Shown piece after piece: positions 4,069-27,708 of a stretch of 64,000 nucleotides of DNA. Source of the DNA: Bacillota bacterium (GTDB lineage Bacteria; Bacillota; UBA4882; UBA10575). A program made the position numbers and the translations under genes. Each line of letters starts with the position of its first letter. Positions within the stretch are counted from its first letter, which is position 1. The DNA lies in assembly GCA_012735195.1 (NCBI GenBank), contig JAAYIC010000014.1, positions 62,001 through 126,000 of the forward strand, given 5' to 3'. The notes beneath the pieces were generated by a model. It was not told where the DNA came from. It ran no database searches and saw only the letters and a program-made list of their open reading frames with translations.

Positions 4069-4249
4069 GAACCGGAGAGAGAAGACGGGTGGCGGGTGGG
4101 AGAGTGACGAGGGCTTTTTACCGGATTGCTGGCGTACGCGGCGGCACGTACGCGCGCGCGCGGATCAGCGAAGCTACGATTTCTAGACCCCCAGTCTAGT
4201 TACAGGCAGCGTCGCGTTCGTGCATGCAGATCAGCTGCGCATGACGTTG
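4069..4249. repeat. Intergenic repeat block with alternating purine-pyrimidine tract
   Basis: No gene is seen here. A GTGACGAG string (4104-4111) precedes a 48-base block at 4115-4162 that matches the left arm of the palindrome at 27143-27190 at about 40 of 48 positions by eye. The block ends in an 18-base strictly alternating tract (4145-4162, CACGTACG then CG repeats). A small perfect stem CTAGAC/GTCTAG around five C and an A follows near 4183-4199, without a T run. Confidence 0.6.
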
Positions 4250-4278
4250 TTGCCCGGTGCGGGCGGTAATGTTATACT
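4250..4278 (+). promoter_or_regulatory. Likely sigma-A promoter for the polymer/csaB/tagA cluster
   Basis: TTGCCC at 4250-4255 and TATACT at 4273-4278 are separated by 17 bases. The first gene of the cluster starts about 65 bases downstream. The -35 box is only a half match, so confidence is moderate. Confidence 0.5.
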
Positions 4279-27067: not shown

Positions 27068-27708
27068 ATCCGGGGTCAAAAAGCCCGGTAGGCTGCTGGG
27101 GTTTGATTCGAGCGACGAGCGACTAGTGACAAGTGCGAGATGTTTTTGCCGGATTGCCGGCAGACGCGGCGGCGCGTACGCGTGCGCATGGCGGCGTTGC
27201 TCGGTACGGGCGGTGCTCAAAACTGGCGGGGACTCCAAGAAACCGGAACCAAGGAATCCGGCCGGGCTGCTAAGGCTCGGTGGGAAGGAAAACCGGGTAC
27301 ATGGCTTACGGGACCTCCATGTCCCGGAAGCCACCGCGCCGCCTCCTGCGGCTTGCCCCGGTTTTCCTTCCCCCCTCGCCAAGCATGCCCAGGGCCGTCT
27401 CCCCAGGTCCCGGTTTCCCGGAGCCCCCGCCAGACGATAGAATTTAGCCGGGACTGTGGGCCGGTCTGCCGGCAATCCGGCAAGGGCGCCCCCCGGCGCG
27501 CTGGGGTTGGGCGCCGGGCTCAGGGTATGGTTTTGTGCATAGGCGGTGGTTATGGGAAAAGTACCGGACGGCGAGGGAAACCACGAAAAAATGAATCACG
27601 GCAGCCAAGCAACGAGTACCGAGAATGCCCAGTATGCAAAGAGCATACAATCGAGTGACAAGCTGCGACAACCAGCGACGAGCACCGAGTACCGGGGAGG
27701 TGACAAAT
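27068..27708. other. 641-base gene-free stretch with repeats and a large palindrome
   Basis: No believable gene is present; open frames here cross the palindrome and have no ribosome sites. The stretch starts with GACGAG-type strings (27109-27140), continues with the 338-bp palindromic element, then a GC-rich hairpin-prone segment (27484-27530), and ends with more GACGAG/ACCGAG strings (27607-27699) that run into the ribosome site of the next gene. Confidence 0.65.
27146..27483. repeat. MITE-like imperfect palindrome with 20-bp terminal inverted repeats
   Basis: The ends at 27146-27165 and 27464-27483 are exact 20-base inverted copies. Inside, further pairs match in order: a segment near 27227-27248 with one near 27409-27437, GGAAGGAAAACCGG at 27283-27296 with its complement near 27357-27370, and a central stem TGGCTTaCGGGAC/GTCCCGgAAGCCA at 27302-27333 around six bases. 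The whole can fold into one long stem. It has no coding capacity. Target-site duplications are not obvious. Confidence 0.75.

Follow-up and report, generated by a model that had tools for sequence, protein, structure and literature searches.

The 338-bp intergenic palindrome analyzed here is probably a non-autonomous mobile repeat, namely, a composite, MITE-like element with a core related to the TwoAYGGAY motif of Rfam. According to this explanation, an outer MITE-like element with an exact terminal stem and a basic form of ~175 bp would have gained, in the genus of the source genome, a second palindromic element in place of its ~68-nt interior. The gained module would be a ~211-bp long hairpin that opens at its apex into a three-way junction, with a pair of minus-strand hairpins whose loops contain GGA, and a putative member of a Firmicutes-wide family of ~200- to 220-bp palindromes that includes TwoAYGGAY and, very probably, Bacillaceae-1 read from the other strand. 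A transposase acting in trans would have moved the element, recombination between dispersed copies would swap the interiors, and the copy described here would have arrived in the same way as the others.

The Palindrome and Its Surroundings

The window, that is, the complete 64,000-nt stretch of DNA under analysis (G000:C108:62001-126000), was compared in particular with the genus mates G001 and G002. Within it, the palindrome is located downstream of recJ and relA/spoT, flanked by dtd (PF02580; 26609-27067) on one side and a gene for a 527-aa protein without a Pfam match on the other. The preliminary description, which was made from the letters of the window, proposed a noncoding imperfect palindrome bounded by exact 20-bp inverted repeats, with the arms matching toward the center. 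The palindrome is borne out: the outermost arms are complementary at 20 of 20 positions, the nested arms at 27223-27263/27393-27433 and 27274-27297/27357-27380 are 78% and 88% complementary, respectively, and none of the open reading frames that cross the 338 bp on either strand looks like a gene. The suggested folding check also came out clearly, with a minimum free energy of -211.2 kcal/mol vs. -155.6 kcal/mol for shuffled sequences (z = -10.2; 0 of 100 shuffles as good). The repeats, exact as they are, do not hold up as the limits of the element: all full copies elsewhere run on with AAGGGCGCCCCCCGGCGCGCTGGGGTTGGGCGCCGGG to about position 27520, so that the repeated unit extends beyond the 20-bp repeats. 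Similarly, the 338 bp are palindromic as described, but consist of two palindromes, one nested within the other (Table 1).

Degenerate cgagcgacgagcaacgag tracts and a CTCCAACGGCATGCTT repeat fill the spacers around the element (window 27104-27135 and 27610-27700). The same filling is found in many intergenic regions of G000, G001, and G002, and the tracts persist at sites empty of the element.

Table 1. Parts of the composite palindrome and a related fragment, in window coordinates
Feature	Position	Strand	Basis or remark
Left arm of the exact 20-bp inverted repeat (TTGCCGGATTGCCGGCAGAC)	27146..27165	+	Same arm with matched partner changes in 22 copies
Right arm of the exact 20-bp inverted repeat	27464..27483	-	Arm pairing
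Outer left segment (query 1-73)	27146..27218	+	Seen throughout family f1, in the short (~175 bp) form as well as the long one
Inner module, a palindrome with 14-bp arms of its own, CTGGCGGGGACTCC / GGAGCCCCCGCCAG	27223..27433	.	Nested arms, comparison of copies
Core modeled as R1/R2, TwoAYGGAY-related (would read on the minus strand)	27265..27392	.	Covariance models, Rfam
Apical hairpin 1, loop AUGGAG (ACAUGGAGGU, CsrA-site-like)	27302..27333	-	GGA kept in 62/63 copies
Apical hairpin 2, GCCGC-AGGAG-GCGGC	27338..27352	-	GGA kept in 59/63 copies
Outer right segment (query 300-338)	27445..27483	+	Common to the short form
Conserved extension, second GC-rich hairpin past the right repeat	27484..27520	+	In every full copy
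Outer-element fragment elsewhere in the window	4229..4267 (G000:C108:66229-66267)	+	Copy search

Dispersed Copies with Exchanged Interiors

Searches of the genome and its relatives with the 338 bases showed the element to be multicopy; the outcome that the preliminary description named as speaking against it, a single copy with arms that do not align beyond the outer 20 bp, did not occur. The source genome carries three long copies (contigs C108, C107, and C47) along with short and partial ones, and the short-form query gave 8, 13, and 24 matches in G000, G001, and G002, respectively. Many dispersed copies in one genome and terminal inverted repeats combined with a lack of coding capacity are properties that the element shares with MITEs, with the qualification that in this genus conservation extends past the right repeat. 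Among the 150 genomes of the relatives search, the outer ~175-bp repeat was found only in its own family (Hydrogenispora-like MAGs), and a plasmid search with the element returned no match. Among the matches listed, a pattern scan of genome contigs for the left end yielded chance hits for the most part.

Comparison of the copies revealed the composite architecture. Members of other genera in the family have the same two ends (query 1-73 and 300-338) around another interior, which is short, yielding the ~175-bp element; the inner module of the long form stands where the short form has about 68 nt. The inner module is also found nearly alone, with the outer ends lost, at L003/L239, between hisC and the operon gene that follows it; in L002 and L054, it has the opposite orientation with respect to the outer ends. 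In the terminal stem, changes between copies are mirrored in the partner arm, for instance, GCCGGC/GCCGGC vs. GTTGGC/GCCAAC. Alignment of 12 inner copies and a divergent one yields a rod with a three-way junction at its end and two small hairpins.

The sites themselves differ between the sister genomes. At the position of the window copy, G001 has a short, element-free intergenic region, and G002 has the right-hand hairpin alone, immediately 3' of the dtd stop codon; this hairpin stands without the rest of the element also at the L025 site in G001. At the sites of L053 (G001), L014, and L025 (G002), the full element is absent in the sisters, with the polymorphic block at L014 exceeding the element in size and having other repeats mixed in. 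Such insertion polymorphism between close relatives is a further property of MITEs. At three loci shared between species (L002/L015/L070 with L076; L008/L040/L039; and L026/L033/L042), the outer element is constant and the interior varies, being either long or short or turned around with respect to the flanks, as in L002 vs. L015 and also in L054. We infer that the interiors were swapped by recombination between dispersed copies.

The orthologous inner modules at L003/L239 are 92% identical, compared with 82% identity at the four-fold synonymous sites of the adjacent gene. This slow evolution means constraint or gene conversion and is unlike that of a neutral relic; conserved inside an apparent operon, the module possibly plays an attenuator-like role.

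Core copies are arranged in tandem at two loci (210- to 226-bp spacing), and contigs break at related copies; the loci concerned are L274 (end of G001:C121), L006/L273 (end of G000:C9 and start of C51), L284 (G002:C119), and L260 (G004:C57). The tandem copies and the breaks together suggest longer, collapsed arrays downstream of a gene common to the three genomes of the genus.

Relationship of the Core to TwoAYGGAY and Bacillaceae-1

The secondary structure of the core is supported by covariation. In an alignment of 21 copies, which was fitted to the structure and thus favors covariation counts, 36 of the 39 pairs show compensatory changes, with 162 double-change cells vs. 50 in shuffled alignments and 19-40 with slid partners. 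Across 63 copies, 31 pairs are Watson-Crick in at least 80% of the cases, and 17 of these 31 occur as all four pair types. G-U and A-C combinations are both rare and nearly equal in number (35 and 51 of 2212 cells; p = 0.11), indicating that the pairing is held on both DNA strands and leaving no RNA strand evident; the small control of ten tRNAs contained 10 G-U and 0 A-C combinations.

A covariance model built from the genus of the window only (R1) recovered additional copies in G004 and G009, as well as one in the distant Firmicute G284 (L286; E = 6e-12). On the strand opposite to the R1 match, L286 is recognized by the TwoAYGGAY model (RF01731) with 54.5 bits (cut-off, 43), and its other strand yields a subthreshold match to Bacillaceae-1 (RF01690; 25.2 bits; cut-off, 35), as does L287 (24.1 bits). 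Matches to RF01731 on the right strand, all below the cut-off, were obtained for L307 (41.4 bits), L306 (37.7), L320 (32.9), and L289 (26.7), and within the genus of the window itself for L277 (32 bits). A second model, R2, matched 77 of the 399 sampled Firmicutes genomes, with copy numbers representing floors given that eight candidates per genome were scored. Six R2 sites match RF01731 at the same place and on the same strand, and most R2 members score under the RF01731 cut-off. The window copy has the paired GGA-loop hairpins on a junction that characterize TwoAYGGAY, did not match RF01731 even at E = 10, let alone at the 43-bit cut-off, and falls below the RF01690 model; Rfam scans of the window copies yielded nothing credible. 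HEARO elements and group II introns, considered as candidates, received no support from Rfam matches, and nothing we obtained spoke for an integron attC site.

Both motifs were first listed by Weinberg et al. 2010 (PMC2864571). Gardner and Eldai 2014 (PMC4333381) reported that the CsrA site is matched by TwoAYGGAY and by the reverse complement of Bacillaceae-1, noting that the discoverers of the latter were unsure of its strand. The elements described here share with TwoAYGGAY (clan CL00106) the long stem, the junction, and the two adjacent GGA-loop hairpins, and with Bacillaceae-1 the same two-hairpin apex on the opposite strand, albeit at the sub-cut-off scores of L286 and L287. Bacillaceae-1, which is catalogued separately as an sRNA, is very probably the other strand of the TwoAYGGAY palindrome family. 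Unlike TwoAYGGAY, the window copy scores below the model and is nested in another repeat. In Rfam, RF01731 has the status of an RNA; the family analyzed here, by contrast, occurs in high copy number, with target duplications and matched inverted repeats. In G147, a minus-strand TwoAYGGAY match (L289 1311-1642; match at 1485-1642) abuts a glmS ribozyme match (1311-1486) on the same strand.

Mobility of Distant Relatives

Sharp borders with matched inverted repeats delimit the copies in the distant genomes G066 and G175. Perfect 6- to 8-bp direct repeats flank 17 of the 32 copies, compared with 1.7 on average and never more than 7 when the borders were re-paired 5000 times. The complete genome G175 contains 443 and 466 matches to the two end sequences (control, 1 and 1), that is, ~450 end pairs, in forms of about 217, 207, 180, and 130 bp, and the R2 core was present in 11 of 20 further regions of this genome. 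Across families, the element is mostly 198-212 bp long, with 12- to 19-bp repeats that are usually perfect and vary in sequence. With these matched inverted repeats and 6- to 8-bp target duplications, the members in G066 and G175 behave like DNA transposons. Among the copies of the window's genus, inspection by eye found no clean target duplication; no autonomous partner was found among the matches listed for G000-G002, where the TTGCCGG ends either form closely spaced pairs or are located near the ends of contigs, and the one G175 region examined for a transposase contained none. Of the target duplications and the transposase with matching ends that the preliminary description proposed to look for, the duplications were found, in the relatives.

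Bacterial MITEs, such as bcr1 of the Bacillus cereus group, are short, noncoding, imperfect palindromes with inverted repeats, located between genes and flanked by short direct repeats. The element resembles them in being short, noncoding, imperfectly palindromic, bordered by inverted repeats, and dispersed between genes, as do its distant relatives in their short flanking direct repeats, and it differs in that no partner transposase was identified and that the core structure is conserved across the phylum while the stem sequences turn over completely. The preliminary description left the choice between a MITE and a structured-RNA element, and our results support both at once, for the outer and inner halves: the dispersed copies, the presence or absence at orthologous sites, and the duplications around distant core relatives speak for the former, and the compensatory changes in the core and the TwoAYGGAY matches of its relatives for the latter.

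CsrA and the GGA-Loop Hairpins

CsrA-sequestering RNAs of the CsrB/RsmZ type carry hairpins with GGA loops, and the paired minus-strand GGA loops of the present element, kept in nearly all copies from many families (Table 1), are similar. It differs from such RNAs in forming dispersed repeats rather than one gene and in occurring in a genus without CsrA. Of the 399 Firmicutes genomes, 70 of the 77 that bear the element also have csrA, compared with 215 of the 322 others (Fisher p = 9e-6, a statistic that ignores phylogeny). The csrA gene (PF02599) is found in 12 of the 13 other genomes of the family and is absent from G000, G001, and G002 (94-97% complete); therefore, the element cannot at present serve as a CsrA sponge in the genus of the window, and this function was rejected. 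In the wider element family, CsrA binding may be relevant. The orientation of the element relative to genes (29 vs. 19) shows no significant bias, and cis-regulation by the GGA strand was set aside on this ground. None of 54 elements lies between divergent genes, so that the element is always 3' of some gene. In the csrA-less complete genome G082, L024 (G082:C1:1055697-1055725) matches the apical hairpins over 29 nt, which may be due to chance.

These observations bear on the principal alternative, a functional structured RNA, such as a CsrA-sequestering sRNA, that was duplicated as a gene, with the palindrome serving RNA folding and mobility being incidental. This scenario would account for the GGA in both apical loops, the co-occurrence with csrA, the slow evolution at L003/L239, and the earlier proposal of Gardner and Eldai (PMC4333381), but we consider it unlikely: the three csrA-less genomes nevertheless have 8-17 model matches each, G-U and A-C combinations are balanced, contrary to the small tRNA control, the preference in gene orientation is insignificant, the association with csrA ignores phylogeny, and G175 harbors ~450 copies with target duplications.

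Discussion

The interpretation of the palindrome as a composite, non-autonomous mobile repeat with a TwoAYGGAY-related core is based on the copies, the polymorphism of their sites, the swaps and inversions of the interior, the covariation, the reach of R2, the target duplications of the relatives, and the matches to RF01731. Speaking against it, no clean duplication was seen in the window's genus and no transposase with matching ends among the matches listed, the window copy does not match RF01731, and the pair at L003/L239 is conserved. A plain MITE with a core that resembles TwoAYGGAY merely through convergence on hairpins would fit the last but one of these points, as well as the scores of most R2 members under the RF01731 cut-off, but it is quite improbable considering that R1, which was trained on a single genus, reached an above-cut-off TwoAYGGAY member on the matching strand and that RF01731 coincides with six R2 sites in place and strand. 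A palindrome generated by chance or slippage, as the GC-rich, repeat-filled surroundings with their 'cgagcgacgag'-type tracts might suggest, is hardly credible and already refuted by the existence of dispersed homologous copies, in addition to their sharp shared structure, covariation, and fold (z = -10).

The composite mobile repeat may have broader implications. A tentative extension, which we regard as less likely than not to hold in full, is that of a phylum-wide transposable family in which the sole conserved internal feature is the paired CsrA-binding hairpin and of which TwoAYGGAY and Bacillaceae-1 are the two strands. Each insertion would then seed a CsrA site by a gene, and csrA-less lineages, such as the genus of the window, would show the element freed of the host protein. 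Among the papers searched, none connects MITEs to CsrA or to TwoAYGGAY. What is new is the link of these two Rfam families to a transposable palindrome, along with the csrA-less genus.

Overall, these results show nested palindromes exchanging their interiors at fixed chromosomal sites, and suggest that two motifs catalogued as bacterial "RNA families" constitute, or are contained in, a single palindromic transposable family, which bears on the reading of TwoAYGGAY, Bacillaceae-1, and other structure-based RNA candidates. The wide co-occurrence with csrA, set against one csrA-less genus in which the element multiplied, offers a natural test of the link to CsrA.
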